From positions 1-64,000 of IMG/VR virus record IMGVR_UViG_3300044730_000313: DNA of 64,000 nt, one strand, 5' to 3'. The notes below the pieces were generated by a model. The model was given only the letters and a program-made list of their open reading frames with translations. It was not told the origin of the DNA and did no database searches. The DNA comes from a virus. Below, piece after piece: positions 3,377 to 27,750 of this stretch (position 1 is the stretch's first letter; every line of letters begins with the position of its first letter). The position numbers and the translations under genes were made by a program.

Positions 3377-3622
3377 TTAGATGGTTGTTGTGCTACTAGT
3401 TGTTGTTGTTGTGGTAGGTGCTGCTGTAGTGCTACTAGTAGTGGTAGTAGTTGGAGGAGCTGTAGTGGTAGTGGTGGTTGTAGGAATACAACACTCATTA
3501 GCATCAATCTCTTTCCAGTTACCCACCTTAGGTTTATTGCGCTGAAGAATCAAACTACCAGCGATTACACGTCCTGTTCCATCGAAACGAACGTATGCTT
3601 TTAATTTATTATTAGTTGCCAT
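3377..3622 (-). CDS. Small appendage protein with poly-Thr C-terminal tail (paralogue 1)
   Basis: The first 47 or so residues form a compact domain with KLKAYVRFDGTGRVIAGSLI and ending in NECCIP. The rest is a mucin-like tract built from runs of Thr with Ser, Ala and Pro. The tract uses ACA, ACC and ACT codons mixed together, so the amino-acid sequence rather than a DNA microsatellite seems to be kept. It is a tandem paralogue of the gene at 3635-3856. The tract would make a good O-glycosylation acceptor, and a glycosyltransferase gene lies two genes upstream. A virion-surface role is inferred, not shown. Confidence 0.72.
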   Translation of the reverse strand: MATNNKLKAYVRFDGTGRVIAGSLILQRNKPKVGNWKEIDANECCIPTTTTTTTAPPTTTTTSSTTAAPTTTTTTSSTTTI

Positions 3623-3634
3623 AGGTTAGGAGTT

Positions 3635-4875: not shown

Positions 4876-4901
4876 ATGTAGTTTGTTGGTTTGTTATTGA
4901 A

Positions 4902-5051: not shown

Positions 5052-5052
5052 T

Positions 5053-6201: not shown

Positions 6202-6207
6202 AAGTTA

Positions 6208-6238
6208 CAAATCTATGGTGAAATTAACAAAAAACAAT
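6208..6238 (-). promoter_or_regulatory. Probable promoter for the appendage and glycosyltransferase block
   Basis: On the minus strand TAGATTTG lies at 6215-6208, an exact TAnnTTTG box, preceded after 19 bases by ATTG at 6238-6235 (three of four matches to TTTG). The box ends 7 bases before the ATG at 6201, so the transcript would be nearly leaderless. The -33 match is imperfect, so confidence is moderate. Confidence 0.5.
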
Positions 6239-6256
6239 GAGCATCAACAAATTACG

Positions 6257-8909: not shown

Positions 8910-11900
8910 ATGCCAAACAGTTACACATATTTTAAACCTGAAATCAAGCAGTGGTTTCTAGATAATGTTCCCACCAGTAAACGCATCCTAGATGTAGGTC
9001 CTGGACAGGGTACATATTCTGACCTGCTTAGAGATCATGGGTATAGAATAGATGCTGTAGAAATCTGGGCTCCTTACGTAGATCAGTTTGGATTGAGGGC
9101 TAAATATGACAATGTCTACATAGCAGACATCCGTGAGTTTGATATAAGCGATTATGACTTCATCATACTGGGAGATGTCCTAGAACATCTGTCTACAGAG
9201 GATGCCAAGCGTCTAATAGACAAGATATTATTTTCAGAGATGGGGTGTCTTGTGGCCATTCCCTACATGATGCCTCAAGAGGGGGCAGAATATGGAAATG
9301 AACATGAAACCCATTTACAGCCAGACCTCACACCACAGGTGATGATGGATAGATATCCCAGTTTGGTAAAACTGTATGATAATCAGTGGTATGGATATTA
9401 CGTAATGGAGGATAGCAAGTGGGAAAAGGCCTATGTACTCTATGCCACAGAAAGCTACAAGGACACTGTACAAGCCTGTGTGGACAGCATCAAGATGGTG
9501 AGTGAGATTCCCATTATTGTCTACATGCTTAATTCAGATGTTGATATAAAGGGAGCTGTCACCATCAAGTGGGAATGCAATGTTGACAATCCTAAGCAGG
9601 ACAAATACATCAATAGAGCTAGCAGTGACATATATAAGATACTTATACAACGTCCAGCTATTGTAAAAGATGCGCTTAGATATGCTAAGACGGTGGCTTA
9701 TATAGATAGCGATAGTGTAGCTACAAGATATATAGATACCATCTTTGACTATTTCCCAGTTAAGAATACCCATCCCTATTTTGTAGAGGGTATATATGAC
9801 TGGATGGTGCTAAATGGTAGGGGTGGAGCAATGTCTTATGATGACCTATCCACCACCCTAGAACACCCAGCTTGTTACTTGTTCAAGGTGGATCAGTATT
9901 TTAGAACCACCTACAGACAGACAGGCTATTTTGTAACTGGTCAGTGGTGTGAAAACTTTCTAGATGAATGGGTGTGGATGTGTAACCATCCAGCCATCCT
10001 TAAGAACCCACAATATTACGCTCCCTATCACGAGGAAACCATAGCCAATGTGCTTCTGTGGAAGTGGAGGGTGAACAAGGGACTGCCCTATCTATACATA
10101 AACGGTTCACTAGATATGGTGAACAATGTAGAATTCACTGGTTACAAGAAACACACTAGTCATTTTGTAGCCAGCCCTGCTTCTGAGAACCAACTGCTTT
10201 TCTATCACGGAGAGAAAGATGCTGTCACCATGTACAGAATGATAGAACGTATAAACCGTCTAAGAGTGCTGTTTGTAGCTCCTCACCTGTCTACAGGTGG
10301 TATGCCTGCCTTCCTCTTGAGAAGAATACAAGCTCTGCAGGCGCACACAAACGTAGACATCTATGTGGTGGAATATGCCAATCACAGTGATCACTATGTT
10401 GTGCAGAAAGATCAGATAAAACAGCTAGTGAAACACTTCTACACCCTGGGAGAAGATAAGCACGAACTTATAAATATCATACAACAGAACTTTATAGATA
10501 TTGTACACGTAGAGGAGATGGTGGAAGATGGCTGGAACAACTGGCCAGAGAGTTTAAGGGAAGCTCTCTATGCTTCTGATAGGACATGGAGGATGGTGGA
10601 AACCTGTCATAACATTGTGTTCAAGCCAGACATTGAGAAGCGCTTCCATCCAGACAGCTACATGTTCTGCACTCCCCACCACCTGAAGACATTTGTAAAC
10701 ATGCCTTCTCCTAAATACGTGGTGGAATACCCCATAGAAAAGAAGAATGCTGTAAAGCTAGACCTAGGACCAGGAAAGCATGTACTTAATGTAGGACTAT
10801 GGACTCCTGGCAAGAATCAAGGAGAAGCTGTAGAGCTAGCTAGACAAATGCCAGATGTGCACTTCCACTTTGTAGGGAATCAAGCAGGTAACTTCCAGCA
10901 CTACTGGGAACCTCTAATGAAAGATGTTCCTTCTAATGTGCATGTGTGGGGAGAGCGTAATGATGTAGGTAGTTTTATGAAGGGGTGTGATGTCTTCCTT
11001 TTTAACAGTACGTTTGAGTGTAATCCTCTGGTGATTAGAGAAGCCATAGGATTTGGTAAACCCATCATAGCTCGCAACCTCCCACAATATGGAGACATGT
11101 TCACTAAATACATCACTGACCTAGACCCAAAGAGGCTCAAGGAACAGGTGTATGAACAGCTTGACAATCCAAAGAAGTATGATGTTCCTGAGAACGAAGA
11201 GTTAGAGTTTGCCCTGTCTCATCTTGCCATCTATCAGAAGGTGACACATAGTCCCATACAGTCTAATGAAACCATAACCATCGATCACAACTTTGTGTTA
11301 CAACCCTTCCTTGAAATCAAGGGTAGGTCTAAGAGTAAGTTCAGGGTGGAATATCTAGATGAGCAGGGCGTGTGTCATTACAGAAACACAATAGGTGTTA
11401 ACAACTGGGTGAAGCTCAACAGGAGGTGGTATACCAAGTGGACCATTAAGATATGGAAAGACGATGAGCCCTATTATGAATACACCCTAGACTATACAGG
11501 CAAACGCGTGTATATAGCCTTTGATAGTAAATCCTTGGGAGACACAATAGCCTGGATGCCCTACGCTCTTGAGTTTAAGAAGAAGCACAACTGCCATGTG
11601 ATAGTGAGTACATTCAAGAACTTTCTGTTTGATGTCGTTTATCCAGAGCTTGAGTTTATTGAACCAGGACAACCTGCTTCCAACATATATGCTCAGTATT
11701 GTATTGGTTGGTTTTACAATTCAGACAAAGAACCAGCTTTGTGTAACATCGTAAAGCTCCAAGAGGCAGCCACTAACATCTTAGGTCTTGAGTTTCAAGA
11801 GATTAGACCCAGAATAGCCTTCACTCCTGGTGACAATTTATATGGTAAATATGTTACAATAGCCACCAACTCAACAGCAGGCTGTAAGTTCTGGACCAAA

Positions 11901-12326
11901 GAAGGCTGGCAGCAAGTGATTAACTTCCTGCACGAGAAAGGATATAAGGTAGTAAATGTGTCCAAAGAAAAGAATCCTTTTGACAACTGTGAGCAGATAG
12001 AGGATGTGTCCATGGAAAACACTATGAATGTCATCCATCATAGCCATCTATTTATTGGACTATCTAGTGGACTTAGTTGGTTAGCCTGGGCTATGAATAA
12101 GAAGGTGGTGATGATATCCAACTTTACAGACTCAGATCATGAGTTTAGCTGCATCAGAATTACCAAGACAGATGTGTGTCATGGCTGTTGGAATAAGGCT
12201 GAATACAGATTTGATGCAGGAGATTGGGACTGGTGCCCAGAGCACAAAGGTACAGACAGACAGTTTGAATGTCACCAGAAGATATCTGCTAGTCAGGTTG
12301 TTTTTGCTCTTTTAAACCATATTTAA
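8910..12326 (+). CDS. Multi-domain methyltransferase / glycosyltransferase with O-heptosyltransferase-like C-terminus
   Basis: The 1138-residue protein appears to join four units. (1) About 1-170, a class I SAM methyltransferase (ILDVGPGQGTYS at 26-37). (2) About 170-445, a GT-A-like unit with YIDSDS and Asp266-x-Asp268. (3) About 450-790, a GT4-like GT-B unit (RVLFVAPHLSTGGMPAF; ECNPLVIREA with Glu703 and Glu711 in the EX7E layout). (4) About 790-1138, a region resembling autotransporter strand-loop-strand O-heptosyltransferases (BAHT/TibC): VYIAFDSKSLGDTIAWMPY with Asp878, then Cys1090, Cys1093, Cys1109 and Cys1121, like the iron-binding cysteines of TibC. ADP-heptose transfer to Ser on protein is the family reaction; the acceptor here is inferred. 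It is the only plus-strand gene and its end overlaps the convergent gene by 38 bases. Confidence 0.82.
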   Translation: MPNSYTYFKPEIKQWFLDNVPTSKRILDVGPGQGTYSDLLRDHGYRIDAVEIWAPYVDQFGLRAKYDNVYIADIREFDISDYDFIILGDVLEHLSTEDAKRLIDKILFSEMGCLVAIPYMMPQEGAEYGNEHETHLQPDLTPQVMMDRYPSLVKLYDNQWYGYYVMEDSKWEKAYVLYATESYKDTVQACVDSIKMVSEIPIIVYMLNSDVDIKGAVTIKWECNVDNPKQDKYINRASSDIYKILIQRPAIVKDALRYAKTVAYIDSDSVATRYIDTIFDYFPVKNTHPYFVEGIYDWMVLNGRGGAMSYDDLSTTLEHPACYLFKVDQYFRTTYRQTGYFVTGQWCENFLDEWVWMCNHPAILKNPQYYAPYHEETIANVLLWKWRVNKGLPYLYINGSLDMVNNVEFTGYKKHTSHFVASPASENQLLFYHGEKDAVTMYRMIERINRLRVLFVAPHLSTGGMPAFLLRRIQALQAHTNVDIYVVEYANHSDHYVVQKDQIKQLVKHFYTLGEDKHELINIIQQNFIDIVHVEEMVEDGWNNWPESLREALYASDRTWRMVETCHNIVFKPDIEKRFHPDSYMFCTPHHLKTFVNMPSPKYVVEYPIEKKNAVKLDLGPGKHVLNVGLWTPGKNQGEAVELARQMPDVHFHFVGNQAGNFQHYWEPLMKDVPSNVHVWGERNDVGSFMKGCDVFLFNSTFECNPLVIREAIGFGKPIIARNLPQYGDMFTKYITDLDPKRLKEQVYEQLDNPKKYDVPENEELEFALSHLAIYQKVTHSPIQSNETITIDHNFVLQPFLEIKGRSKSKFRVEYLDEQGVCHYRNTIGVNNWVKLNRRWYTKWTIKIWKDDEPYYEYTLDYTGKRVYIAFDSKSLGDTIAWMPYALEFKKKHNCHVIVSTFKNFLFDVVYPELEFIEPGQPASNIYAQYCIGWFYNSDKEPALCNIVKLQEAATNILGLEFQEIRPRIAFTPGDNLYGKYVTIATNSTAGCKFWTKEGWQQVINFLHEKGYKVVNVSKEKNPFDNCEQIEDVSMENTMNVIHHSHLFIGLSSGLSWLAWAMNKKVVMISNFTDSDHEFSCIRITKTDVCHGCWNKAEYRFDAGDWDWCPEHKGTDRQFECHQKISASQVVFALLNHI

Positions 12327-12513
12327 TCCACCTATACCAGATGCGTTCGTGGAAGTAGTATTGTACAGGCTTCCATAGGAGCTCAGCAATACCAAAGGCA
12401 GCACCTGCTTTTAAAGATCCTGTCACTACAAGCATTGTAGCAAACCCAATCAGTGTGCTTATCAGACGGTAGCTAATAGTCTTAGCTATATGTCGTTTCT
12501 TTAATACAGTCAC
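12289..12513 (-). CDS. DUF2061-like small membrane protein
   Basis: The 74-residue protein has KTISYRLISTLIGFATMLVV and then WKPVQYYFHERIWYRWIKYG, which match the DUF2061 pattern: a short basic start, two membrane helices and a conserved HERxW segment. The function of DUF2061 is unknown. It closes the sugar/sulfate cluster, overlaps the NMNAT-like gene by 4 bases, and runs tail to tail into the plus-strand glycosyltransferase gene. A link to sulfate or nucleotide metabolism is suggested only by its neighbours. Confidence 0.72.
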   Translation of the reverse strand: MTVLKKRHIAKTISYRLISTLIGFATMLVVTGSLKAGAAFGIAELLWKPVQYYFHERIWYRWIKYGLKEQKQPD

Positions 12514-12896
12514 AGCTTACCCTCCGCTTTCATTTGCTCACGTATTTTTGTGGCAGATATGTCATGTATATCTGCAGGAGGAATGTGCTCAATAACATCA
12601 TAGCCCACACCTCTACCAATGTTGATGGACTCAATATTAGGAATCTTTATGATGCTCAGCCTACCAGTCTCAAGTAGTTCTTTAAGTTCACTAGATAGAT
12701 TCATCAGTATTTCCTGTGCGGTCCAGGGATTCTTTTCATCCACAGGCACATCTCTTATGCAGAGAAGCACCTTCTTATCCTCGTTCAGAGCTTGATCAAT
12801 AAGCCATCTGTGTCCTGCATGCCAGGGTTGCCATCTTCCAATAAACATTGCCCACTCTCCTGATTTGTGAGCAGCTTTTGCCAGTACGTTTTGCAT
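12510..12896 (-). CDS. NMNAT/cytidylyltransferase-like nucleotidyltransferase
   Basis: Using the ATG at 12896 the product has 128 residues (an upstream ATG at 12935 would add 13; the ATG at 12848 would remove 16). The core has WAMFIGRWQPWHAGHRWLID, with an HxGH-type nucleotide-binding motif (WHAGH), and near the C-terminus DISATKIREQ, which matches the ISxxxxR motif of the superfamily. GRGVGYDVIEH is also conserved-looking. Members join a nucleotide to NMN, phosphopantetheine or a sugar phosphate. The pattern closely resembles NMN adenylyltransferases, so NAD synthesis is possible, but its sugar-cluster setting allows other substrates. Its start overlaps the epimerase gene. Confidence 0.68.
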   Translation of the reverse strand: MQNVLAKAAHKSGEWAMFIGRWQPWHAGHRWLIDQALNEDKKVLLCIRDVPVDEKNPWTAQEILMNLSSELKELLETGRLSIIKIPNIESINIGRGVGYDVIEHIPPADIHDISATKIREQMKAEGKL

Positions 12897-13639
12897 AATG
12901 TTAATCCTTCGTTTAATGAATATCGTGGTGCCCAACCAGGCATCCAGTATCTAGGATTGCTACATGTGTAGAACTGGTATCCTTCTGGTATAGCTAATTG
13001 GTCATGATAGGTGTATGGTATATCCAATACGTCTGCAATATACTCAAAGCTGTGTGCCTCTCCAAGTCCTACATCATATTTCTTTCCTGATAGCACATCG
13101 TAATGTGCTAGAGCACGTAGATTAGCTAGTATTACATCATCCACATATATAAAGTCACGCTTGGGCTCACCAGGAAACAGCTTTGTGCTTCCAGCTTTTA
13201 ACATCTGGAAAGCCATAGAAGCCATCTTACCCTTATGTTCTTCTCCTGGTCCATAGACATTGTAATATCTAAGCGCTATTCCTCCTCTACTAAGAACATA
13301 CTGCTCACCCACATATTTGGACCACCCGTAGAGGTTTGATGGACATACACCATTGTTCCCATAACATGCTGCTGAGGAGGAGTAAATGAGGGGAACGTTG
13401 TTATTGTGACACCAGTCTGAAATAATTCTTGTTGATTCATAGTTAGTAAGCATTATGTAATTAACGTCTGTCTCCAGGGTGTTAGAACAAGCTCCTACAT
13501 GAAACACAGCCTCTGGCTTGTTCTCATCTAACCACTCTGTAGTGACAGGTGTGTCTTCATTAAGCTCAAGAGGGCTGTCAAAATACTTCTTTAAATTGCC
13601 CCCTATAAACCCTTTAGTCCCTGTGATTAATACCTTCAT
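12785..13639 (-). CDS. NAD-dependent sugar epimerase, HldD-like
   Basis: The 284-residue protein is an extended SDR: GTKGFIGGN (nucleotide-binding GxxGFIG at 7-13), FHVGACSNTLETDVNYIMLT, SSSAACYG at 87-94, and Tyr104...Lys108 (NLYGWSK). The segments GACSNTLETD and YYNVYGPGEEHKGKMASMAF resemble ADP-L-glycero-D-manno-heptose 6-epimerase (HldD), which interconverts ADP-heptose epimers. The last 25 or so residues overlap the NMNAT-like gene in another frame, so the tail may be non-family sequence. It starts with a 4-base overlap with the HldE-kinase-like gene, giving three consecutive ADP-heptose pathway-like genes. Confidence 0.8.
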   Translation of the reverse strand: MKVLITGTKGFIGGNLKKYFDSPLELNEDTPVTTEWLDENKPEAVFHVGACSNTLETDVNYIMLTNYESTRIISDWCHNNNVPLIYSSSAACYGNNGVCPSNLYGWSKYVGEQYVLSRGGIALRYYNVYGPGEEHKGKMASMAFQMLKAGSTKLFPGEPKRDFIYVDDVILANLRALAHYDVLSGKKYDVGLGEAHSFEYIADVLDIPYTYHDQLAIPEGYQFYTCSNPRYWMPGWAPRYSLNEGLTLCKTYWQKLLTNQESGQCLLEDGNPGMQDTDGLLIKL

Positions 13640-14382
13640 GGTGTATTCACCCCTCTTTTAGATACAACAATAGAGCTCATCTTATTAGCAAAGGTAATAG
13701 AAACATCAACATCTTGCACCTGTAAATACTTGATAGCAAAAGCAGCCAGGAATGTATCACCAGCCCCTGACACATCTATTGTTTCTTTGGGTTCTGTAGG
13801 ATAGAGAGTGCCCATATATTTAGCTCCCTTACCACCTAGTGTAATAATCATCCTGAGGAGCAGTTGTCTGTCATCTGTTCTATTGTATTCCCACTCTAAC
13901 TCATTGAGTTTTACAAAGTTGTAGAGCAAGATGGTATCTGGATGCAGCTTCTTCTTAGTATCAAGAAATGAAAGTTTTGCAAGTTCTGCTATTTCTTGGA
14001 GCATCTCTTCTGTTAGAAAGCCCTTATTGTAATCACTTACAATTACAGCATCTGCTTCTTTAATCTTTTGTATAACATCCTCTGTAAACCTGAAGGGCAC
14101 CATAGCTCCATTCTCACCCTCATCCACTCTGAGGAACATGTGGTTGGTTTTCCTGTCAATATATCTGCACTTAACAATCACCTCAGACTGACAGATGCAT
14201 TCGATTTGATATTCATCCGTGAGCGCTTCTAGGTTCTTTCTAACATTCCCAGCCATCCCATGGTTTAATGTTCTGGTGATGTTAGACAACACAGGGACAG
14301 GAGCTTCTGGAGATAGTCTTTTAACATCTCCATAAGTGAATACATCTATACAACTCTCACCTATTACTAGTATCTTTTTCAT
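13636..14382 (-). CDS. PfkB-family sugar kinase, HldE N-terminal-domain-like
   Basis: The 248-residue protein resembles the kinase half of HldE: GESCIDVFTYGDVKRLSPEA, SDYNKGFLTEEML, KLNELEWEYN and the PfkB signature DVSGAGDTFLAAFA with the expected catalytic Asp209. HldE kinase phosphorylates D-glycero-D-manno-heptose 7-phosphate at O1. At 248 residues it is shorter than most PfkB kinases (about 300), so some loops are trimmed. The nucleotidyltransferase half is a separate gene (14357-14758) overlapping it by 26 bases, so this is a split arrangement. A different sugar phosphate substrate cannot be ruled out. Confidence 0.8.
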   Translation of the reverse strand: MKKILVIGESCIDVFTYGDVKRLSPEAPVPVLSNITRTLNHGMAGNVRKNLEALTDEYQIECICQSEVIVKCRYIDRKTNHMFLRVDEGENGAMVPFRFTEDVIQKIKEADAVIVSDYNKGFLTEEMLQEIAELAKLSFLDTKKKLHPDTILLYNFVKLNELEWEYNRTDDRQLLLRMIITLGGKGAKYMGTLYPTEPKETIDVSGAGDTFLAAFAIKYLQVQDVDVSITFANKMSSIVVSKRGVNTP

Positions 14383-14758
14383 AGCTCAGTATTGTAGTTG
14401 TTGAAATTTCCGCTATCCTCTCAAAGTACCTAACATTCTTAGAATGTTCTGCTCCAATTACACGTTTATCCCTATAGTCAGAACCCACTATCATTATGTC
14501 TGGTTGATAGAGTTTGATCTGATCAATAAGCTCCTGCTCACTACCAAACCCCACCACTTCATCTACAAAGCGTAGAGACTCTAGCATTTCCTTTCTGTCT
14601 TTAAAACAATTAAAGGGCCTTGTGGGACCCTTTAGCTCTTTTATTCTATCATCTGTGTCTATTCCCACTCTCAAATAGCCCATAGCTGCTGCATATTTTA
14701 AGAGCTTTATGTGTCCTATATGTAGGATGTCAAAAGCTCCGTTCACCCATATTCTCAT
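14357..14758 (-). CDS. HldE C-terminal-domain-like nucleotidyltransferase
   Basis: The 133-residue protein is a cytidylyltransferase-fold enzyme: VNGAFDILHIGHIKLLKYA with the HxGH motif at 13-16, then IMIVGSDYRDKRVIGAEHSK and STTTIL. These match the ADP-forming half of HldE (RfaE domain II), which transfers AMP from ATP to heptose 1-phosphate to give ADP-heptose. Length fits a single domain. It lies between a HAD-like protein (4-base overlap) and the HldE-kinase-like gene, matching the pathway order. Substrate choice cannot be read from the sequence, so other sugar 1-phosphates are possible. Confidence 0.82.
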   Translation of the reverse strand: MRIWVNGAFDILHIGHIKLLKYAAAMGYLRVGIDTDDRIKELKGPTRPFNCFKDRKEMLESLRFVDEVVGFGSEQELIDQIKLYQPDIMIVGSDYRDKRVIGAEHSKNVRYFERIAEISTTTILSYEKDTSNR

Positions 14759-16652: not shown

Positions 16653-17522
16653 TTATTTCAGAGAATCAATAATCTGTTGAATGTTAAATATCTCAGTTTC
16701 GTTATTGTAAGGAAACTCTAATAGGTTTCCTGCTATGTCAAACTTCTGTAGATATGCATTTCTAAGCTCAGGTTTCTTAGTGAATGGGTTGGACACAATG
16801 TTATTGTGCACCTCATGACCAAACACTACAGGAGTGTTTGCTATCCACAGCACTGTAGAAGGCTTGTTTAAAGCTGCTGCAGCATGGTGTCCAAAGCTAT
16901 CCATGAGTAGACGTTTCTCACTAAGAGATATAAGAACACACAGAGCTCTAAAGTTATCTGTTACAGACGTGGTGCCATTATATGCTATTTGATCCTCACG
17001 TCTTATGTGCACAATGTTGTATTCACTTTCATAAGCTCGTATAACATCAGACACAACAACAGAAGGAATGTCTCTAGCCCAAGAGTATTTAAGATCTTGG
17101 TTAGGAGCTCCTCCGTTTGTTTGAAGTAGTAGGATGGGTTTGTCAGAACTAAACTTGCTAGCAAAGAATGTATTTTCTCTTTCTGTAAGGAATATTTCAG
17201 GTTCTGTGCCATCATGCTCTATTCCAAACATTCTGCACCATGTCTTAGATAGGTGTTCATCTTGCTTTAGATAGTCTGTTTCCACGTAGGGATCATGCAC
17301 AAATACCCTGAAGGCTTTGTCCTCAATAAAATCCTGATAGAAATAGCTCATATTGCCAAAGGCAAACGCTCTATCTACATAAGGATTGTTGAGAAAAACC
17401 TCAGGGTATCCACTTACAACAATGAGTTGATCCTCAGGATGTTGTTTCTTAATAGCTCTACATACAGCTGTAGCTATAACACACTTACCTATACCACCGT
17501 TAATTGAGAATATTATGTTCAT
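16653..17522 (-). CDS. GT9/heptosyltransferase-like glycosyltransferase
   Basis: The 289-residue protein has the GT9-like start NIIFSINGGIGKCVIATAVC, where the Gly-rich loop precedes the helix of the N-terminal Rossmann half. Later come LLLQTNGGAPNQDLKYSWAR and LLMDSFGHHAAAALNKPSTV, the GT-B region lining the nucleotide-sugar site in heptosyltransferases. Overall identity to LPS heptosyltransferases cannot be judged by eye. It is first in the cluster, after its own promoter, so a heptose or other hexose transfer step is likely. It is soluble. Confidence 0.72.
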   Translation of the reverse strand: MNIIFSINGGIGKCVIATAVCRAIKKQHPEDQLIVVSGYPEVFLNNPYVDRAFAFGNMSYFYQDFIEDKAFRVFVHDPYVETDYLKQDEHLSKTWCRMFGIEHDGTEPEIFLTERENTFFASKFSSDKPILLLQTNGGAPNQDLKYSWARDIPSVVVSDVIRAYESEYNIVHIRREDQIAYNGTTSVTDNFRALCVLISLSEKRLLMDSFGHHAAAALNKPSTVLWIANTPVVFGHEVHNNIVSNPFTKKPELRNAYLQKFDIAGNLLEFPYNNETEIFNIQQIIDSLK

Positions 17523-17568: not shown

Positions 17569-17913
17569 TTATTCTTCAGTGGTGGTGGTGGTAGTGGTAG
17601 TTGGACTATAAGCCAACACTGCCTCAGCAAGATCGTTCAACAACTCCTGATCCAGATCTTCTGCTTGCACTCTGAAGGATTCAGCATTAGGTTGGTTAGG
17701 TAACCAGTCTGAGAAAAGGGTGTTAAAGTTGTTGATCGCATGGAAGCTTTTAGGACCTGCATATCCTTCAGGTCTGTTAGCCCATACATCATCCACTACA
17801 GCATCCACCTGAGCCTGAAAAGCTGATATGGGAGCCTGTACATTCTGTGTGTCAGAGATTGCTTGTACAGTTCCAAATCCAAAGATGTGGAGGGTGTTCC
17901 AAGTTTGCGCCAT
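17569..17913 (-). CDS. Phage protein with poly-Thr C-terminus, 114 aa
   Basis: The 114-residue protein has a mostly helical body (FQAQVDAVVDDVWANRPEGY, LDQELLNDLAEAVLAYSP) and ends in eight consecutive Thr and two Glu. The body was not matched to a family. Like other Thr-tailed proteins in the window it sits next to fibre genes, so a virion-surface role with a glycosylated tail is possible. It has its own promoter. Confidence 0.68.
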   Translation of the reverse strand: MAQTWNTLHIFGFGTVQAISDTQNVQAPISAFQAQVDAVVDDVWANRPEGYAGPKSFHAINNFNTLFSDWLPNQPNAESFRVQAEDLDQELLNDLAEAVLAYSPTTTTTTTTEE

Positions 17914-17965: not shown

Positions 17966-18493
17966 TTAGCAAGTTACAGGGAAGCTAACTACATACCAAT
18001 CAGTTCCATTATATCCCACCTCAACAGCATTATTAGGTGAATACCAGTACCAAGAAGTTGTTGTGCTCAATTGATAGAAACCATTGATTGTCAAGATGGT
18101 ATTTGTTGTAAGAGTTCCTGTATAAGAGTACACTGCTGTAGCTGCTGTTGCTCCATTATTACAAGCATCAGTGGAAGAGGTCCAGCCGTTTGTAATAGCT
18201 TTATTTCTTCCACTACCATGTAATGTAATACTTGTTGGTGCAGATGTGGTAGTAGTGGTAGTTGTCGTACCAGAAGCAACTAGATCAGATTTAACAACCA
18301 ACTGATTAGAAGCCTTTGCTGCATAAGGAGCATAAGAAGTGTCAATACTCACATAAGTGCTTGCGTCTGACTTAGTTATCTGTTCACTGCTAACAGGAAT
18401 AGTGGTAAGGGCTGTGAAAACACCAGTGTTTACAGCGTTCTGAAGGTTGTTAAATGATACAGTTTGGTTATTTGCTAAACCTGCCCAACTCAT
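17966..18493 (-). CDS. Appendage protein with internal poly-Thr tract, 175 aa
   Basis: The first 75 or so residues form a domain beginning MSWAGLANNQTVSFNNLQNA and ending ASNQLVVKSDLV, a start I recognise from Bacteroidota phage proteins. A Thr-run (about eight Thr, then SAP) links it to a C-terminal beta-rich domain of about 90 residues with GFYQLSTTTSWYWYSPN and YNGTDWYVVSF. The Thr linker again looks like a glycosylation target. It overlaps the 3086-residue fibre gene by 4 bases, suggesting translational coupling and a shared structure. Confidence 0.72.
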   Translation of the reverse strand: MSWAGLANNQTVSFNNLQNAVNTGVFTALTTIPVSSEQITKSDASTYVSIDTSYAPYAAKASNQLVVKSDLVASGTTTTTTTTSAPTSITLHGSGRNKAITNGWTSSTDACNNGATAATAVYSYTGTLTTNTILTINGFYQLSTTTSWYWYSPNNAVEVGYNGTDWYVVSFPVTC

Positions 18494-21400
18494 GGTGTAA
18501 GCTTTTTAATAATATCTTCAAGTTGAGCAATCCTTTCTTCAAGTTTAGTCATCTTATAGATGTGAACTTGGTGATAATCAACATTATAGTAGCCACGTTC
18601 GTCTGTTTTTACAGCATTTGGTAGCACCTCTTTGATATTTTGTGCAGAGTAGCCTATGTTGATAACACTAGGATCACCCTCTTTCCAGTTGTAATAAATA
18701 GGACTTACACAGTCAGAAGAAGAAACACGACAATGTACATTTTTGAGGCGTTCATCAGAGGTTTCAAAATAGGCTACTGCCCACATACAGGATGTAGCAC
18801 AGAAGTTATTCCAATAGAAGGTGCATCCGCAAGAGCCTGATATGTTGCAGCCTCCACCACCTCCCGCTGTTCCTGATATAGTGTTTCCACATCCACCAAG
18901 GACTGAAGAACATCCACCTGAAGCTGTGTTTGCGCATCCACTAAATACACCTGATGCTATTGCTGAGGCAGTGTTATAAGAGCCTCCGCCCACTGTAGAG
19001 CAATAACTTGAAGTGGTATTTAAGGCACCCCCTGATATTGTACTTCCGAGTCCTGAAGCTGTGTTTGCAGCACCACCGCCAATAACTGATTGTATTCCTG
19101 AGCCGAGATTCAGAATACCACCTCCAATTGTTGAACAAGCCCCTGTGGCTCTGTTTTGACAGCCGCCTCCTATAAATGAAAGACATCCTGCTGCGACAAA
19201 ACAAGTTGCTGCAACACTATATGTTCCTCCCGCTGCATTCCAAGTCCCCCCAACTGTGTTGTTTCCAACCCCGCCTGCCACTGTCGCTCCCGCTGTGCAA
19301 AGAGAACAAACAGTAGAGCAAAGGATATTACATATACCTCCACCTATTGTTGCATTATTACCTTGCACGACATTTCTGTAACCCCCACTAATTGATGATG
19401 CATAGCCTATTGCAGAGTTTACATATCCTCCTGCTACAGTTGCATAATAGTTTGAGGCTGTGTTTGTTGTTCCTCCCCCAACAGTGGCTCTTCTAACTGT
19501 GGCGCAGTTGTTTATACCTCCTGCAACAGTTGTTTGGTCTGCACTTGCACAGTTTGCACTACCTCCTCCGACAAATGAATCGCTTCCTAATGATTTGTTG
19601 AATTTACCACCTGAAACTGTTGAGCAAGCACCTGAAGCAACATTCTGTTGTCCACCCCCAACAGTTGACCTCGCTGCTGTTGAGCAGTTAAGTATTCCTC
19701 CCCCAACCGTGGAGCCATTGTTTCCTGTGGCTTCGTTCCTATACCCACCTGATATTGTTCCGTAACCTCCTGAAGCTATGTTTTGATAACCACCTCCTAT
19801 AAATGCGTAGGCTCCCGATGCTGTGCTATTATAACCTCCTGCTACGACACTTCTTCCGCTGTTAGATGTGTTACTATCACCACCTCCTATAAAAGTATAA
19901 ACCCCCGAAGAAACATTCGATGCACCGCCTCCAACAACAGTTGCATAATTACCGCTTGCAGTGTTTCCCGTTCCTCCACCTACGAATGAACGAGAACCTG
20001 AAGATAAATTACTTTCACCACCACCTATAAATGAACAGCCTCCTGATGAAGTGTTATTAATACCACCCACAACAGAAGCCCTTGAACTTGATGCAGTGTT
20101 ACTTTGTCCGCCTCCAACAAAAGACCATCCGCCTGACGCTGTGTTACTTCTACCGCCCACTACAGCAGCACATATACTTGAAGCTGTGTTAGATTGACCA
20201 CCAACTACCACCGAGTAGTTACCACTAACAGTATTAGCACCACCTGTTAAAATGCCTCCTTCTGTAGCTGATGATATTTGGTTACTATAACCACCTGCTA
20301 TGACATGATAAGAACCACCTACGATTCTATTGTTATAACCACCACCAATTGAGTTTACGAATCCTGTGGTAATACAGTTTTGAAATCCACCACCAATGAC
20401 ATTACATCCTGAGGATGTTCCACAAATTCTATTTTGTTGCCCTCCACCAATTACATTTCTTACACCTGCTGTAGAATAGTTATTACTACCACTACCTATA
20501 AATTCATATCCTCCTGTTGCAGTATTAGTTTGACCACCTGCAATTACAGCAAAATTATTTGAAACAGTGTTTGATTCCCCTCCTGCGACAGTAGATGAAG
20601 TTCCACTTGCAGTGTTTGCTACACCACCTCCAACAGTAGAACCATATCCACTACTTGTGTGGTTTCTACCACCTCCCACAAATGAATACGCACCTAAGGC
20701 TTTATTATTATCACCACCTACTACAGCACCTACATATCCTGGAGCACAGTTGTAATAACCACCCCCTACAAAAGAATATCCATTACTTGCCTGATTTCCT
20801 GTTCCACCAACAACAGTTGAAACATAACTTCCACTAGCAGTATTAAGACAACCACCACCTACAAATGAACAAGCACCTGAAGCAATGTTTGCTCTTCCTC
20901 CTGAAACTACCGAAGTAGCACCTGAAGCGGTATTTTGATAACCACCTGAAATAGTTGAGTTTGTTCCTGATGCTGTACTATTATATCCACCACCAATAGT
21001 TGCATAATAACCTCCACTTGCTACGTTATCTCCACCTCCACCTATTGCACTTGTTACTCCTGAGGCTACGTTACTATTACCACCTGCTACTGTTGAAAAT
21101 AATCCTGATGCTACATTACTATTACCACCTGTTACTGTAGAGCGATCACCTGCTGCTCTATTCTGAAAACCTCCACCTATTGTACTATAAATACCTGCTG
21201 TACAGACCGTTGGGTTCACAGTTGGCACTCCATAAGCATTCCATGTTCCACCCGTAGTGTTATTACCAATACCACCTGCTATTGTCGCTCCTGTTACGCA
21301 ACAAGTTGCTGTTGGGCTACATATCTTATTCCATGAACCACCACCAACAACAGACATATCCCCACTTGCGTTGTTGCATAAACCTGCACCCACAAATGAG

Positions 21401-24400
21401 TATCTACCACTAGCTGTGTTTTGCTGACCCCCAGCCACTGCTGAGTATCCACAGGTAGCTGCGTTATAATAACCACCACCAACAAATGTTCCCGAAGCAG
21501 TAGAGCAGATTCCTACACCTCCAACAATTGCAGCATATCCTGAAGAAGAAAGATTGCTATATCCACCAACGACAATTGAACAGTTACCTGATGCTGTATT
21601 TGATTGACCACCAAGCACAGCAGCACGATAACCCGATGATGTATTGCTATCACCACCACCCACTATTGACCTTCCACCTGAAGCTGTGTTTGAGGCACCA
21701 CCTGCTACAGTTGGGAAATAACCTCCACTTGCTGTGTTACTTGAACCACCACCAACAAAACTCCATCCTGAACTTGAAGCTGTGTTTCCAGAACCGCCAA
21801 CTACTGCCGCTCTAAATCCTGATGCACAATTGTTATAACCACCACCAACAAATGAAAAACATCCTACGGCTCTACTATTATAACCACCTGAGACGGTTGA
21901 ATATCCATGAGTAGCGCAGTTAAGAAGACCACCTCCAACTGTTGCGTAACAACAAGTTGTTTGGTTTGCATTACCACCTGAAATAGTGGAAATATACCCT
22001 GAGGCTGTGCTATTAACACCAAATACTGTAGTAAAACTTGCACTACCTGTATTACTTCTTCCTCCTACTGTTGCGTAATTTCCTGATGCAGTATTAGCTT
22101 GTCCTCCTGTGACTGTTGCTCTTGACCCTGATGCTGTATTAGAACACCCACCGCTTACAGTTGTGATGTAACCTGATGCTGTATTAGTCAAACCACCTGC
22201 TACAGTAGAATAAGTGCTTGAAGCTGTGTTAGTTCTACCTCCCCCCACCGCAGATGCACCTCCTGATGCTACGTTACCAAATCCACCTACAACAGCCGCA
22301 CAACCTCCTGAAACACTATTTCCTTGACCTGCTCCTATAAAGTTAGCCCAAGCTGATGTAGTATTTGATACACCACCTACTATAGTTCCATAGTAATTGC
22401 ATGATACAGTGTTATTATATCCACCACCAATAAATGCAAGACCTGAGCCTGCTATGCAGTTTGCACTACCCCCAACAATTGAAGAACGACCTGTAGAAGC
22501 TACAATGATATTACCATAGCCGCCACTTATACTATTGCAAGCAGTTGATGTAGAGTTGCCTCTTCCTCCTAAAACAGTTGATGTATTTCCTGATGCTGTA
22601 TTATTACAACCACCAACAACGCTTGAATTTGCACCCGAAGCTGTGTTCGTGCATCCACCACCTACAAATGATATATTACCACTTGCTGCGTTTGCTTTTC
22701 CACCTACTAATGCAGCACAGTTACCTGCCACTCCATTGATACTACCTGCTCCTAAGAATGCATAAGTACCACTTACTGTGTTAAAATATCCACCTCCTGC
22801 TACTGAATATACTCCTGATGCTGTATTGTTTTGTCCACCTGCTACAACTGAAAAATTATTTGTGGCAAGATTTGATTCACCACCTGCTATCGTTCCTCTT
22901 GTGCCTGACGCTGTATTACTTTGTCCACCCCCAACTGATGAAAAATTCCCCGTAGCTCTATTCTGAAATCCTCCTCCTATGAAAGAGTATTGACCTGCGT
23001 TACATACAGTAGGAGCAACAGTGAACGCACATGAAGCCAAAGACCAAGAACCACCTGTTGTATTATTTCCTACTCCACCTACTACAACTGCACCAAAAGC
23101 TAAACATCCTGATGTAGAATTAATTGCACGATTGCAATTACCACCACCTATAAATCCATTTATTGCATTTACTCTATTTGCGCAACCTCCAACCATGGCT
23201 GCGCCTGTTCCATCTACTAAATTAAGATATCCACCTGAAACAGTAGAACCTCCGTTAGCAGTTGCACAATTCAATAACCCACCACCTACAAATGAATATC
23301 CTCCTGATGAACTATTTGCTCTACCTCCACTGACTGTTGAAACAAAGCAAGAAGCAATATTACAGCATCCACCACCAATTGTTGAATGTCCTCCTGATGC
23401 TGTATTACCTTGACCACCTCCTACAAACGAACAGTTACCTGATGCTGTATTACTAATTCCTCCTGCAACTGTTGAAGCAGTTCCTGAAGCACCTCCTGCA
23501 TTACCTCCTGCCACTGTCGCAAATGCTCCACTCGCTGTGTTAACGATACCACCACCTACAAAAGCATATCCTGCTGAGGCTGTGTTTGCTTGACCACCAC
23601 CTATAAAGCTACAATTTCCTGAAGCAGTATTACATTGACCACTTCCTACTCCTGACCTAAGACCTGATGCACCATTAGCAAAACCTGCTCCAATAAAAGC
23701 CATACATCCTGAAGCAGAGTTAGCATTACCCCCACCAACATGAGATTCATTACCTCCTGCTGTGTTGTTATAACCACCACTTATTGACGACCAACTACCG
23801 CTTGATAGGTTACCCCTACCACTTAAAACACCTGCTGTTGTTCCTGAGGCCAAGTTGTTGCACCCAGCTCCAACAAAGCTAAATGCTCCGCTAGCAGTGT
23901 TAGTTCTACCGCCTGCTAATGAAGCGCATTTTCCAGAGACTACGTTATTACTACCTGCAAGGATGGCTGAGTACGAGTTGCTCACACTGTTGTTTCCTCC
24001 CACCACAATCGCGGATTCTGAGGCACTTGTGATCAAACAGTTTCTATATCCACCACCGATGAAATTGTATCCTCCTGATGTAATGCAGTTGCAGATACCA
24101 CCTACTAGTGTTTGCCAAACACCTGTTGAGATGTAGTTAAAACACCCTCCACCTATAAATGATTCAGCAGAAGAAGTTGCTCGGTTATAACATCCACCTA
24201 CAACAACATCGTGTGGACCTGATGCAACGTTTACAACACCACCGCCTATAACAGAGCGGTAGCCTGATGCAGTGTTGGTTTGACCTGCTCCAATAAAAGA
24301 TTGTCCACCTGAGGCTGTATTTACATTACCTCCTCCAAGTACAGATATAGAACCTGAAGCAGTGTTTCCATATCCACCTCCAATGAAAGAAATATATCCA

Positions 24401-27400
24401 CTTGCAGATTGCAGGCTTCCGCCAACTATTGCTGAAAAGTTTCCACAAGCACTTAAATATTGACCACCTCCTGCAAATGAACCTTGTCCACCTGCTAAGT
24501 TAGTAAAACCACCAACTGCTGTACTTCTATATCCGCTTGCACTATTACTTTGCCCTCCTAAAGCTGCACTGTAACTACCTGCTGAAGCATTACCTACACC
24601 ACACCTAACCGAAGAACATGTTCCTCCACCAAGAATAATAACAGCAGAAGAACCTACATTTATACCACTAGTGCCACTGGTACCTGACGTTCCAGATGTA
24701 CCACTTGATCCACTAGTGCCTGATGTACCTGAAGATCCAGCTGTACCAGAGGTACCTGTTGTACCACTAGTCCCTGTTGTTCCTGAGGTGCCTGATGTAC
24801 CGTTTACACCACTGGTCCCAGATGTACCTGATGACCCAGAGGTGCCACTAGACCCACTAGTGCCACTAGTTCCTGGAGATCCGTTAGTACCACTTGAACC
24901 TGCTGTTCCACTTGTTCCACTGCTACCAGCTGTGCCTGAGCTACCGCTAGTTCCTGATGATCCAGAAGTGCCTGACGTACCATTAGTACCGTTTATACCA
25001 CTTGTACCACTGCTACCAGAGGTGCCACTAGTTCCAGACGTACCTGTTGTACCGCTGGTGCCACTAGTTCCTGTTGTACCACTACTTCCTGCTGTACCGC
25101 TAGACCCAGAGGTTCCAGATGTACCTGGACTACCTGCTGTACCACTAGTGCCAGAAGATCCTGAAGATCCAGAACTTCCACTTGAGCCACTTGTACCACC
25201 ACTACCGTCTGTACCTGATGTGCCAGACGTGCCTGATGAACCAGAGCTACCACTGGTGCCTGAGCTTCCAGAGGTTGCACTTGTACCAGAGGTACCAGAC
25301 GTACCTGTGGTTCCAGAGGTACCTGTAGTTCCACTAGTTCCTGCAGTGCCACTTGTACCACTTGATCCACTAACACCAGAGGTTCCAGATGAACCTGATG
25401 TACCTGTCGTACCAGATGTACCTGATGTAGAAGATGATCCAGAGGACCCTGAACTACCACTAGTTCCTGATGTACCTGAAGGAGGGGTGAATGTGGTTTG
25501 TGCGTATGAGTAGTTACTTGTTCCTTCTGTATAGAATGTAATGTTTTGACTTCCGCCTCCTGTGTGCTCAGCATAGATTTGGCAATAGAGCCTGTCTGTA
25601 GTGAGCATTGCTGTTTGAGGTAGGAACAGGTCTGTAAAGAACTCCTTGATGGTATTGGTGGTCATCACCTCAGTGTCAAGGTTGGTGGTTCCTAAGGAAA
25701 CCACGCTTCCACCTGTGGAGTCACATTTGTAAAGCTCCACATCCACCTTCATGCTAACATTAGCATTTATTGAGAAGTGTGTAACCCATGCCCAAAGTCC
25801 TGAAGGTAAACTTATTACGCCTGGAACATTTGAGTCAGTGGCAAATGTAGCAATTAGTGTTCTGGTGCTACCAGCAACACTTGTCACCACTGTTTGTTCT
25901 GCACCACCTGTAGGTGTACCAGACCATTGCTTATATGTAGGAGTGCCTATTGCACTACTAGTGTTTAATGATTGGTTTAGATAGTATACAAGTCCTCCAG
26001 ATACACCGTTTTGACCTGAGGAGCCCGATGTTCCAGATGTGCCTGAAGTACCAGTTGTTCCTGAAGAACCACTAGTTCCACTGGACCCAGAACTTCCAGA
26101 GCTTCCAGAGCTTCCGCTAGTACCACTTGTTCCAGATGTACCACTGGTTCCTCCAGAACCATCCGTACCACTAGAACCAGAGGTTCCACTTGTTCCAGAA
26201 GATCCTGAGCTTCCAGACGATCCACTTGTTGCACTTGTTCCACTTGTGCCTGATGTTCCTCCAGATCCATCAGTACCGCTTGAGCCTGATGTACCTGAAG
26301 TGGCAGAAGTACCTGATGTTCCACTCGTTCCCCCTGTTCCATCTGTACCAGATGTTCCAGAAGTGCCTGAGGTTCCACTAGTTGCAGAGGTTCCTGAGGT
26401 ACCTGTTGTACCTGAAGTTCCTGACGTTGCACTAGTTCCACTACTTCCTGACGTTCCAGATGTACCGCTTGTACCTCCAGATCCATCAGTTCCAGAGCTA
26501 CCAGATGTTCCACTGGTTCCACTAGACCCACTGGTCCCTGTAGTGCCACTTGTTCCACTAGTTGCTGACGTACCAGAAGTACCAGATGTACCTCCTGTTC
26601 CGTCTGTAGCGCTAGTACCTGATGTACCACTTGTAGCTGATGTACCCGATGTACCTGATGTTCCACCAGTACCATCAGTGGCTGATGTTCCAGACGTACC
26701 ACTGGTGCCAGAAGTGCCTGTAGAACCTGAGGTACCAGATGTGCCCGTAGTACCGCTAGTCCCAGATGTTGCACTGGTTCCTGAAGTTCCCGTAGTACCA
26801 CTGGTGGCAGAGGTTCCTGACGTACCTGATGTTCCTGTTGTGCCTGATGTGCCAGAAGTTCCACTTGTACCACCAGTACCATCTGTTGCAGATGTACCAG
26901 AAGTACCCGTAGTGCCTGATGTGCCACTTGTTCCTGCTGTCCCACTTGATCCAGAAGAACCACTTGTTCCTGTTGTACCAGAGGTTCCCGTAGTTCCAGA
27001 GGTTCCACTTGTACCTGTAGTTCCAGACGTACCAGAGGTCCCACTAGTACCGCTGGTTCCTGATGTACCCCCTGAACCATCTGTTCCTGATGTTCCAGAT
27101 GTCCCCGTGGTACCTGAAGTTCCAGTGGTGCCTGACGTGCCTGACGTACCACTAGTTCCAGAGGTACCAGTAGTGCCAGAAGTACCTGTGGTACCTGATG
27201 TTCCTGTGGTTCCACTGGTCCCGCTGGTACCACTTGTACCAGAGGTTCCAGAGCTACCTGATAGGTCACCAGCAAGGGCTGCCTCTATCTTCTCAAGAGC
27301 TATCTGAAGGTTGTCATTTGTATTAATCTTTGTGTAGACCAGGTTGGGTCCTTCATAGAACACACAGGTGGCGTTCAATATAATAGGACAAGGATTGGCT

Positions 27401-27750
27401 CCACAAATAACAGGAGAATTACAGTTCCCTAGGAAATTACTAATTTGACTGTTATTAGAAACAAGTTTCTGCACAAAGGGAATTCCTTCATTAGAAGTTC
27501 CTGAGGACTCAGTCATAATCACTCTAGGAGCCATTGTAAATGTAGAAGGGGTTTCTGAACCCTTGGCAGACATTAGCTTCTTTAAAAACGGTACCTTTTC
27601 TGTACTAGGTTCTTCTGAAGACTTAGGGGCAGGTGCTGTCACCCTAGGTGCACTCTTAGGATTATGAATGAATATAGCAGGCGTAGATTGCCCTGAAGTT
27701 CCAGAGGAACCAGAGCTTCCATAACCTAGTATAGAAGGTAGTACGTTCAT
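18490..27750 (-). CDS. Giant tail fibre: collagen-like, beta-roll repeats, S74 chaperone
   Basis: This 3086-residue protein has: an N-terminal part (1 to about 163) including CVFYEGPNL; a collagen-like Gly-Thr/Ser stalk (about 164-577); a beta-rich domain of about 170 residues; a second collagen-like stalk (about 755-1028); roughly 1900 residues of 15-residue repeats of the type NTASGNCSFVGGGQG, like YadA-type beta-roll heads; and a C-terminal S74 intramolecular chaperone with Ser2998 in SDERLKN, IGYSAQNIKEVLPNAV and a short final coiled coil. S74 proteins cut themselves at this Ser after helping trimer folding, which would release the last 88 residues or so. The repeats hold many Cys, unusual for a phage fibre. 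The Ser/Thr content makes it a likely O-glycosylation target. It is probably the main host-binding fibre. Confidence 0.88.
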   Translation of the reverse strand: MNVLPSILGYGSSGSSGTSGQSTPAIFIHNPKSAPRVTAPAPKSSEEPSTEKVPFLKKLMSAKGSETPSTFTMAPRVIMTESSGTSNEGIPFVQKLVSNNSQISNFLGNCNSPVICGANPCPIILNATCVFYEGPNLVYTKINTNDNLQIALEKIEAALAGDLSGSSGTSGTSGTSGTSGTTGTSGTTGTSGTTGTSGTSGTSGTSGTTGTSGTTGTSGTSGTDGSGGTSGTSGTSGTSGTSGTTGTSGTSGTTGTSGTTGTSGSSGSSGTAGTSGTSGTTGTSGTSATDGTGGTSGTSGTSGTTGTSGTSGTSATSGTTGTSGTSATSGTSGTTGTSGTSGSTGTSGTSGTSGTSATDGTGGTSGTSGTSATSGTSGTSATDGTGGTSGTSGTSATSGTSGTTGTSGSSGTSGTSGSSGTDGSGGTSGTSGTSGSSGTSATSGTSGTTGTSGTSATSGTSGTSGTSGTDGTGGTSGTSGTSATSGTSGSSGTDGSGGTSGTSGTSATSGSSGSSGSSGTSGTSGSSGTDGSGGTSGTSGTSGTSGSSGSSGSSGSSGTSGSSGTTGTSGTSGTSGSSGQNGVSGGLVYYLNQSLNTSSAIGTPTYKQWSGTPTGGAEQTVVTSVAGSTRTLIATFATDSNVPGVISLPSGLWAWVTHFSINANVSMKVDVELYKCDSTGGSVVSLGTTNLDTEVMTTNTIKEFFTDLFLPQTAMLTTDRLYCQIYAEHTGGGSQNITFYTEGTSNYSYAQTTFTPPSGTSGTSGSSGSSGSSSTSGTSGTTGTSGSSGTSGVSGSSGTSGTAGTSGTTGTSGTTGTSGTSGTSATSGSSGTSGSSGSSGTSGTSGTDGSGGTSGSSGSSGSSGSSGTSGTAGSPGTSGTSGSSGTAGSSGTTGTSGTSGTTGTSGTSGTSGSSGTSGINGTNGTSGTSGSSGTSGSSGTAGSSGTSGTAGSSGTNGSPGTSGTSGSSGTSGSSGTSGTSGVNGTSGTSGTTGTSGTTGTSGTAGSSGTSGTSGSSGTSGTSGTSGTSGINVGSSAVIILGGGTCSSVRCGVGNASAGSYSAALGGQSNSASGYRSTAVGGFTNLAGGQGSFAGGGQYLSACGNFSAIVGGSLQSASGYISFIGGGYGNTASGSISVLGGGNVNTASGGQSFIGAGQTNTASGYRSVIGGGVVNVASGPHDVVVGGCYNRATSSAESFIGGGCFNYISTGVWQTLVGGICNCITSGGYNFIGGGYRNCLITSASESAIVVGGNNSVSNSYSAILAGSNNVVSGKCASLAGGRTNTASGAFSFVGAGCNNLASGTTAGVLSGRGNLSSGSWSSISGGYNNTAGGNESHVGGGNANSASGCMAFIGAGFANGASGLRSGVGSGQCNTASGNCSFIGGGQANTASAGYAFVGGGIVNTASGAFATVAGGNAGGASGTASTVAGGISNTASGNCSFVGGGQGNTASGGHSTIGGGCCNIASCFVSTVSGGRANSSSGGYSFVGGGLLNCATANGGSTVSGGYLNLVDGTGAAMVGGCANRVNAINGFIGGGNCNRAINSTSGCLAFGAVVVGGVGNNTTGGSWSLASCAFTVAPTVCNAGQYSFIGGGFQNRATGNFSSVGGGQSNTASGTRGTIAGGESNLATNNFSVVAGGQNNTASGVYSVAGGGYFNTVSGTYAFLGAGSINGVAGNCAALVGGKANAASGNISFVGGGCTNTASGANSSVVGGCNNTASGNTSTVLGGRGNSTSTACNSISGGYGNIIVASTGRSSIVGGSANCIAGSGLAFIGGGYNNTVSCNYYGTIVGGVSNTTSAWANFIGAGQGNSVSGGCAAVVGGFGNVASGGASAVGGGRTNTASSTYSTVAGGLTNTASGYITTVSGGCSNTASGSRATVTGGQANTASGNYATVGGRSNTGSASFTTVFGVNSTASGYISTISGGNANQTTCCYATVGGGLLNCATHGYSTVSGGYNSRAVGCFSFVGGGYNNCASGFRAAVVGGSGNTASSSGWSFVGGGSSNTASGGYFPTVAGGASNTASGGRSIVGGGDSNTSSGYRAAVLGGQSNTASGNCSIVVGGYSNLSSSGYAAIVGGVGICSTASGTFVGGGYYNAATCGYSAVAGGQQNTASGRYSFVGAGLCNNASGDMSVVGGGSWNKICSPTATCCVTGATIAGGIGNNTTGGTWNAYGVPTVNPTVCTAGIYSTIGGGFQNRAAGDRSTVTGGNSNVASGLFSTVAGGNSNVASGVTSAIGGGGDNVASGGYYATIGGGYNSTASGTNSTISGGYQNTASGATSVVSGGRANIASGACSFVGGGCLNTASGSYVSTVVGGTGNQASNGYSFVGGGYYNCAPGYVGAVVGGDNNKALGAYSFVGGGRNHTSSGYGSTVGGGVANTASGTSSTVAGGESNTVSNNFAVIAGGQTNTATGGYEFIGSGSNNYSTAGVRNVIGGGQQNRICGTSSGCNVIGGGFQNCITTGFVNSIGGGYNNRIVGGSYHVIAGGYSNQISSATEGGILTGGANTVSGNYSVVVGGQSNTASSICAAVVGGRSNTASGGWSFVGGGQSNTASSSRASVVGGINNTSSGGCSFIGGGESNLSSGSRSFVGGGTGNTASGNYATVVGGGASNVSSGVYTFIGGGDSNTSNSGRSVVAGGYNSTASGAYAFIGGGYQNIASGGYGTISGGYRNEATGNNGSTVGGGILNCSTAARSTVGGGQQNVASGACSTVSGGKFNKSLGSDSFVGGGSANCASADQTTVAGGINNCATVRRATVGGGTTNTASNYYATVAGGYVNSAIGYASSISGGYRNVVQGNNATIGGGICNILCSTVCSLCTAGATVAGGVGNNTVGGTWNAAGGTYSVAATCFVAAGCLSFIGGGCQNRATGACSTIGGGILNLGSGIQSVIGGGAANTASGLGSTISGGALNTTSSYCSTVGGGSYNTASAIASGVFSGCANTASGGCSSVLGGCGNTISGTAGGGGGCNISGSCGCTFYWNNFCATSCMWAVAYFETSDERLKNVHCRVSSSDCVSPIYYNWKEGDPSVINIGYSAQNIKEVLPNAVKTDERGYYNVDYHQVHIYKMTKLEERIAQLEDIIKKLTP
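18880..24640 (-). repeat. About 125 coding repeats of a 15-residue beta-roll unit
   Basis: Within the fibre gene the motif ASGxxSxVxGGxxNT recurs about every 45 bases (the count comes from span divided by 45). The DNA copies differ, so conservation is at protein level. Recombination between copies could easily change the length. Boundaries are approximate. Confidence 0.75.
24665..25485 (-). repeat. Collagen-like coding repeat, second stalk
   Basis: A roughly 270-residue stretch of Gly-Thr-Ser, Gly-Ser-Ser and Gly-Thr-Thr triplets with very little Pro. Gly at every third residue predicts a triple-helical, collagen-like stalk. Codons are mixed. Boundaries are approximate. Confidence 0.75.
26020..27260 (-). 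repeat. Collagen-like coding repeat, first stalk
   Basis: About 413 residues of Gly-x-y triplets dominated by Gly-Thr-Ser, with periodic Asp-Gly-(Ser/Thr)-Gly-Gly interruptions that may kink the stalk. The high Ser/Thr density makes it a strong acceptor candidate for O-glycosylation. Boundaries are approximate. Confidence 0.75.

Follow-up and report, generated by a model that had tools for sequence, protein, structure and literature searches.

The locus described here lies in a window of 64,000 nucleotides, which opens an IMG/VR virus record of 113,703 bases, and combines a giant fibre gene, a minus-strand run of sugar- and sulfate-related genes and a convergent plus-strand gene for a multidomain glycosyltransferase (Table 1). 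From the fibre downwards, the minus-strand order is GT9-fold protein, sulfotransferase, APS-kinase-like, cupin, HAD, HldE-nucleotidyltransferase-like, HldE-kinase-like, HldD-like and NadM-like, and these genes overlap or almost abut in an operon-like manner. In a sequence search, the terminase of the record was found to share 40.7% identity with that of Leptolyngbya phage Lbo-JY46 and 34% with those of Cellulophaga phages phi17:2 and phi4:1, with weaker matches to crAss-like phages. The portal, the major head protein and the DNA polymerase of the record also match phage families and, judged from these four proteins, the source is an environmental phage that resembles podoviruses and belongs to the broad Cellulophaga/crAss-type group. 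Every gene named in the initial annotation was recovered as an open frame at its given coordinates or close to them. A gene at 3859-4875 was also considered as a member of the system, but relatives without the cassette carry this gene too and its membership is therefore not supported.

Table 1. Features of the fibre-linked gene cassette in the window.
Feature	Coordinates	Strand	Evidence or remark
Multidomain glycosyltransferase of 1138 aa: methyltransferase-like domain at the N-terminus, GT-like domain in the middle, GT4 domain, BAHT-like domain at the C-terminus	8910..12326	+	Pfam/NCBIfam
BAHT-like (TibC/AAH-type) domain, aa 808-1132	11331..12305	+	TIGR04414, TibC match, conserved residues
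NadM-like adenylyltransferase family protein (GRWQPxHxGH ... ISATxIR)	12510..12848	-	Accompanies APS kinase and sulfotransferase
HldD-like ADP-heptose 6-epimerase	12785..13639	-	TIGR02197 E=4.9e-49; GTKGFIG, YGWSK, HKGKMAS motifs
HldE-kinase-like (PfkB) heptose-7-phosphate kinase, short, 248 aa	13636..14382	-	TIGR02198 E=8e-38; GAGD present
HldE-nucleotidyltransferase-like (RfaE domain II)	14357..14758	-	TIGR02199 E=1.3e-26; HIGH, ISTT present
HAD-family phosphatase-like (EcbF/BcbF type)	14755..15057	-	TIGR01689 E=5.2e-7; block order also in unrelated phage L240
Cupin, sugar-isomerase/epimerase-like	15042..15413	-	Cupin_2 E=7.4e-7; accompanies HldE/HldD in other phages
APS-kinase-like P-loop kinase (PAPS supply)	15379..15831	-	PF01583 E=1.8e-12; PDB 2yvu E=2.7e-13
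PAPS-dependent sulfotransferase-like protein	15828..16646	-	PF13469 E=2.1e-19; PDB protein-tyrosine sulfotransferase E=1.3e-9
GT9-fold glycosyltransferase	16653..17522	-	AlphaFold2 model and Foldseek: WaaF, WaaC, TibC
Small fibre-linked protein, Thr-rich tail	17569..17913	-	13/13 relatives' loci show 15-aa-repeat-type fibre and GT9 gene
Small fibre-linked protein, Thr tract	17966..18493	-	Gene order kept in relatives
3086-aa fibre, proposed glycosylation/sulfation target	18490..27750	-	PF01391 E=3.2e-68; weak S74 C-terminal end
Region of 15-aa VGGGxxNTASG repeats (roughly aa 1090-2990) with a predicted beta-solenoid fold	18781..24483	-	Period 15
Collagen-like region 2, aa 777-1031	24658..25422	-	Composition
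Collagen-like Gly-Thr-Ser region 1, aa 165-587	25990..27258	-	GTS/GSS/GTT triplets dominate

The C-terminal domain of the plus-strand product had been read as a TibC-like O-heptosyltransferase-family domain, and comparison with TibC bears this out. The domain scores 275.7 bits against TIGR04414 (E=5.6e-82; curated cut-off 200) and matches TibC (4RAP) in the PDB at E=6e-51 over query residues 42-342. In TibC, D110 is the catalytic base, T226 and K230 are located at the phosphate and W305 at the sugar, R286, the contact to N1 of the adenine in ADP-heptose, is required for activity, P300 (Ser in AAH) sets stereoselectivity, and four cysteines form an iron finger (PMC4358343). Our alignment shows that D110, T226, K230 and W305 are all kept in the window's domain together with the iron-finger residues C339, C342, C358 and C370, and the enzyme is therefore probably active. 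P300 is replaced by Ser, matching AAH, and R286 is replaced by Thr. The catalytic, phosphate-site and sugar-site residues and the iron-finger cysteines were found to be kept in about 120 of the 125 distinct phage domains.

A difference from TibC and AAH is seen at position 286, where the phage equivalents are Thr, Val, Leu or Ser. Threonine occupies this position in 110 of the 125 distinct phage domains, valine in seven and leucine in two, whereas arginine was observed in 76 of the 79 bacterial sequences that have a residue there. The three bacterial exceptions, the top matches L086, L087 and L088, are nearest to phage copies in a tree in which phage and bacterial copies are largely separated. 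Because R286 is replaced, the domain is assigned to a BAHT-like subfamily and not to the ADP-heptose-specific BAHTs, and its donor nucleotide, possibly its sugar too, may differ from ADP-heptose. The phage domain also differs in being fused behind GT4 and other domains. Like the BAHT genes of bacteria, the phage gene adjoins one for a long, repetitive, adhesin-like protein, but the phage partner is a fibre and the bacterial partner an autotransporter. Bacterial BAHTs modify the beta-solenoid adhesins TibA and AIDA-I (PMC4358343).

The initial annotation had described HldE-kinase-like, HldE-nucleotidyltransferase-like and HldD-like genes in a row, and profile matches and motifs agree with it. 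As in the ADP-heptose pathway, the kinase, nucleotidyltransferase and epimerase carry signature motifs and lie in one run. They differ from the known HldE and HldD in being phage-borne, split and short, and all three products fall under the NCBI equivalog cut-offs. A GmhA-type (SIS_2) gene found no match anywhere in the record, where the HAD phosphatase-like and cupin genes are present, and the former is a possible substitute for GmhB.

The sulfotransferase, APS kinase and adenylyltransferase-like genes form a sulfation set that was absent from the initial annotation. The NadM-like protein was considered as a candidate ATP sulfurylase, but it matched only NMN adenylyltransferases; it is the only member of the ATP sulfurylase superfamily seen in the record, and the host may supply APS. 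The product of 16653-17522 had been called GT9-like, an assignment that holds at the level of fold and not of sequence profiles: searches of Pfam and the PDB by sequence gave no match and no GT9 identity, while its AlphaFold2 model (pLDDT 76) matched WaaF (1psw, E=1.4e-9) and also a Veillonella GT9 protein, WaaC and TibC in Foldseek. On the basis of this model, the product is assigned a GT9 fold.

The Gly-Ser-Thr fibre proposed earlier is indeed present and is collagen-like, its longest collagen-like runs holding 77 GTS, 33 GSS and 17 GTT triplets. The 15-aa repeat covers about 1,900 residues of the fibre. A 180-aa piece of it was modelled with AlphaFold2 as all-beta and solenoid-like (pLDDT 92.6, pTM 0.87). 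This model found no significant match in the PDB; its hits among viral models were uncultured-phage, S74 and giant-virus collagen proteins. A search with NCBIfam models found no autotransporter strand-loop-strand repeats in the fibre. Small proteins with Thr tracts had been put forward as further glycosylation targets. The tracts are there, but they were also found in relatives without the cassette, and these proteins are therefore not supported as targets.

The BAHT-like domain is encoded by at least 581 viral contigs. We scanned 129 phage BAHT-like loci (80 in a first scan and 49 further) and observed a Gly/Ser/Thr-rich repeat fibre in view in 65 of them (39/80 and 26/49). In these 65 loci the gap between the BAHT-like gene and the fibre gene ranges from -16 to 6,448 bp, and the fibre is on the opposite strand and convergent in all except one (64/65). 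No fibre is visible in about half of the loci, in most cases owing to contig ends; locus L016 lacks one with more than 8 kb on both sides. In the cultivated Microcystis phage Mel-JY01, the BAHT-like gene, annotated as methyltransferase FkbM, directly follows a gene for a Ser-rich structural protein. In many BAHT-like loci the fibre was observed to be collagen-like and to lack the 15-aa repeat, so that the collagen-like part is a better candidate acceptor than the repeat.

Sixteen long relatives were picked by terminase and length only. Two were left out, one starting within a collagen-like fibre (G001) and the other ending inside the BAHT-like gene (G003), which left 14; terminase-chosen contigs of 34-79 kb were uninformative as they break before the fibre. 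All eight BAHT-positive relatives have a collagen-like Ser/Thr fibre with 14-56 collagen-model matches, whereas the six BAHT-negative ones show 0-2 such matches, with the fibre locus intact and other fibres at the same place. The Ser+Thr fraction of the fibre is 0.37-0.53 with the BAHT-like gene and 0.23-0.29 without it. For the bare 8/6 split the probability by chance is 1 in 3003; however, the records are related and the terminase tree, built before the two exclusions, needs only about 2-3 changes; the split is thus suggestive of a link to the fibre and no proof of one. The sulfotransferase family was found in 4/8 of the BAHT-positive records against 0/6 of the BAHT-negative ones. Furthermore, phages of 217-373 kb again have a block of NadM-like, APS kinase, sulfotransferase and GT9 genes adjoining giant fibres, and the sulfation genes are tied to the fibre more regularly than the heptose genes. 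The idea that the fibre is what the enzymes modify is thus supported by convergent adjacency and, suggestively, by joint presence and absence with Ser/Thr-rich fibres. The fibre is the likeliest target of the cassette, which probably acts on the virion.

The reading that we favour, with moderate confidence, is that of a fibre-linked modification cassette whose soluble enzymes would add sugar and sulfate to the fibre within the host cytoplasm ahead of virion assembly. The BAHT-like domain would put the first sugar on Ser/Thr residues of the giant repeat fibre that the same phage encodes, with the Gly-Thr-Ser collagen-like stretches common to most loci as the likeliest sites and the 15-aa beta-solenoid repeats as possible further ones. 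This sugar would be lengthened by the GT4 and GT9-type domains, and APS kinase together with the sulfotransferase would put sulfate on the glycan or on the protein. A heptose nucleotide, used in the first step or in a later one, may be provided by HldE/HldD-type enzymes in the window phage and in a few other phages, with GmhA activity coming from the host. The sequence data establish the genes, their families, the conserved residues and the link to Ser/Thr-rich fibres; from these we infer enzyme activity, the fibre as acceptor, heptose as the sugar and the order of steps.

The main rival reading is that the cassette acts on a glycan of the host surface such as LPS or capsule, for instance masking the receptor of the phage's own fibre and excluding superinfecting or sibling phages. 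The best-known role of HldE/HldD and GT9 enzymes is in LPS core synthesis, and serotype conversion by phages is established. The fibre linkage would follow as well: a fibre type has to match its receptor, and linkage is therefore also expected if the enzymes alter that receptor. However, the cassette was found to hold no membrane glycosyltransferase, flippase, polymerase or lipid-linked step, and its proteins all lack strongly hydrophobic segments. In addition, the key enzyme is from a protein-O-glycosyltransferase family, and receptor masking does not predict an association with the Ser/Thr-rich repeat composition of the fibre. We consider modification of a host glycan unlikely.

The heptose genes raise a separate question, as they could be an independent passenger block that serves something else (upkeep of the host LPS, signalling by ADP-heptose or a different glycan) next to BAHT-like, GT4, GT9 and sulfotransferase enzymes that act on the fibre. 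Heptose genes were observed in just 4/80 BAHT-like loci and in one of the eight BAHT-positive terminase-chosen records, R286 is lost in nearly all phage copies, and in phage L240 the HldE2-HAD-cupin-HldE1-HldD order of the window phage occurs with no BAHT in view. Against this, Hld genes adjoin BAHT-like genes in the window phage and its close relatives, and an independent HldD search found the two together in unrelated phages (L226/L229, L231, L236, L249 and L261). As examples, HldD lies near BAHT and adjoins an apparent tail-sheath gene in L226/L229, and the gene orders are BAHT-cupin-APSK-HldD-HldE1 in L231 and HldD-GT4-BAHT-HldE2-HldE1 in L236. This pairing is hardly due to chance because only a small fraction of contigs carry the gene, and we regard a passenger block as improbable. 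Heptose has a slightly better than even claim to be the first sugar in the window phage; with R286 replaced, ADP-heptose as the donor is unproven. In loci without heptose genes, a Gram-negative host could supply the donor.

Lastly, decoration of DNA or of another phage structural protein instead of the fibre is very improbable: DNA-modifying phage glycosyltransferases are well known and the Thr-tailed proteins lie close by, but the cassette adjoins fibre genes and not replication genes, the Thr tracts persist where the cassette is missing, and the relatives of BAHT modify proteins.

Both BAHT enzymes and the glycosylation of phage virions have been described before. The collagen-like fibres of mimivirus and BclA of the Bacillus exosporium are, like the window fibre, Gly-X-X repeat proteins, and they carry O-glycans. 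These systems use other enzymes, and we know of no BAHT-type transferase or sulfation set in them. For mycobacteriophages, the work of Freeman et al. 2023, as presented in PMC12619734, describes glycans on the C-termini of capsid and tail-tube proteins. The likeness would lie in glycans on phage virion proteins, while the target in the window phage would be a tail fibre, with a BAHT-type enzyme and sulfation genes. In the literature that we searched, the combination of BAHT and virion glycosylation, the phage BAHT-like branch and the sulfation link were not described, and reports of phage enzymes that sulfate virions were likewise not found.

We therefore put forward, tentatively and at somewhat less than even confidence, that phages have a widespread BAHT-like protein O-glycosyltransferase branch of their own with altered reading of the donor nucleotide, which works with phage-encoded sulfotransferases and APS kinases to give sulfated, glycosylated tail fibres, and that fibre and enzymes travel from phage to phage as one cassette. 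If true, hundreds of environmental phages would coat their own fibres with charged sugars, which would affect adsorption, stability, recognition and fibre-based host prediction, and phages would be using an enzyme of autotransporter glycosylation. The isolate Mel-JY01 carries a BAHT-like gene, so that the question is open to direct test. Self-coating of fibres may be a common and unrecognised phage trait.

The BAHT-like copies found in three bacterial assemblies, those of Methylomagnum (L088), 'Cli_8' (L086) and Chloroflexi NAT137 (L087), all lack Arg286, the TibC residue that contacts the adenine of ADP-heptose, and their nearest neighbours are phage copies. These three loci are probably phage contigs which were binned into bacterial genomes. 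In the isolated Microcystis phage Mel-JY01, the domain forms the C-terminal end of a product currently annotated as 'methyltransferase FkbM'; position 286 is occupied by isoleucine and a Ser-rich structural gene adjoins the BAHT-like gene.

The heptose block of L240, a phage unrelated to that of the window, was observed to have a gene order identical to the window's and is surrounded by apparent structural genes, with no BAHT-like gene in view at this locus.

Coordinates of the features discussed
Locus	Positions	Feature
Mel-JY01 (L440)	4750-8430	BAHT-like gene
L240	8185-10792	HldE2-HAD-cupin-HldE1-HldD
Window	12510-12848 (-)	NadM-like protein
Window's record (L005)	111390-113456	glycosyltransferase (phrog_2644); match to methyltransferase family phrog_21658
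Window	180-2385	short Lys/Arg-rich proteins, 'KKAQxG'-like starts
Window	28231-47321	giant ORFs, 2072 aa and 4290 aa

The genes for the glycosyltransferase and for the protein with the methyltransferase-family match are distant from the cassette, at the opposite end of the record. The run of short proteins, which is repeated in relatives, possibly encodes DNA-binding or injected virion proteins. Giant virion proteins occur in crAss-like phages at the position matching the two giant ORFs; no family match at the cut-off was found for the smaller one.

The GRGxGYD residues of the NadM-like protein are invariant, and APS kinase and sulfotransferase are its travelling partners. This protein could provide a missing ATP-sulfurylase-like step.
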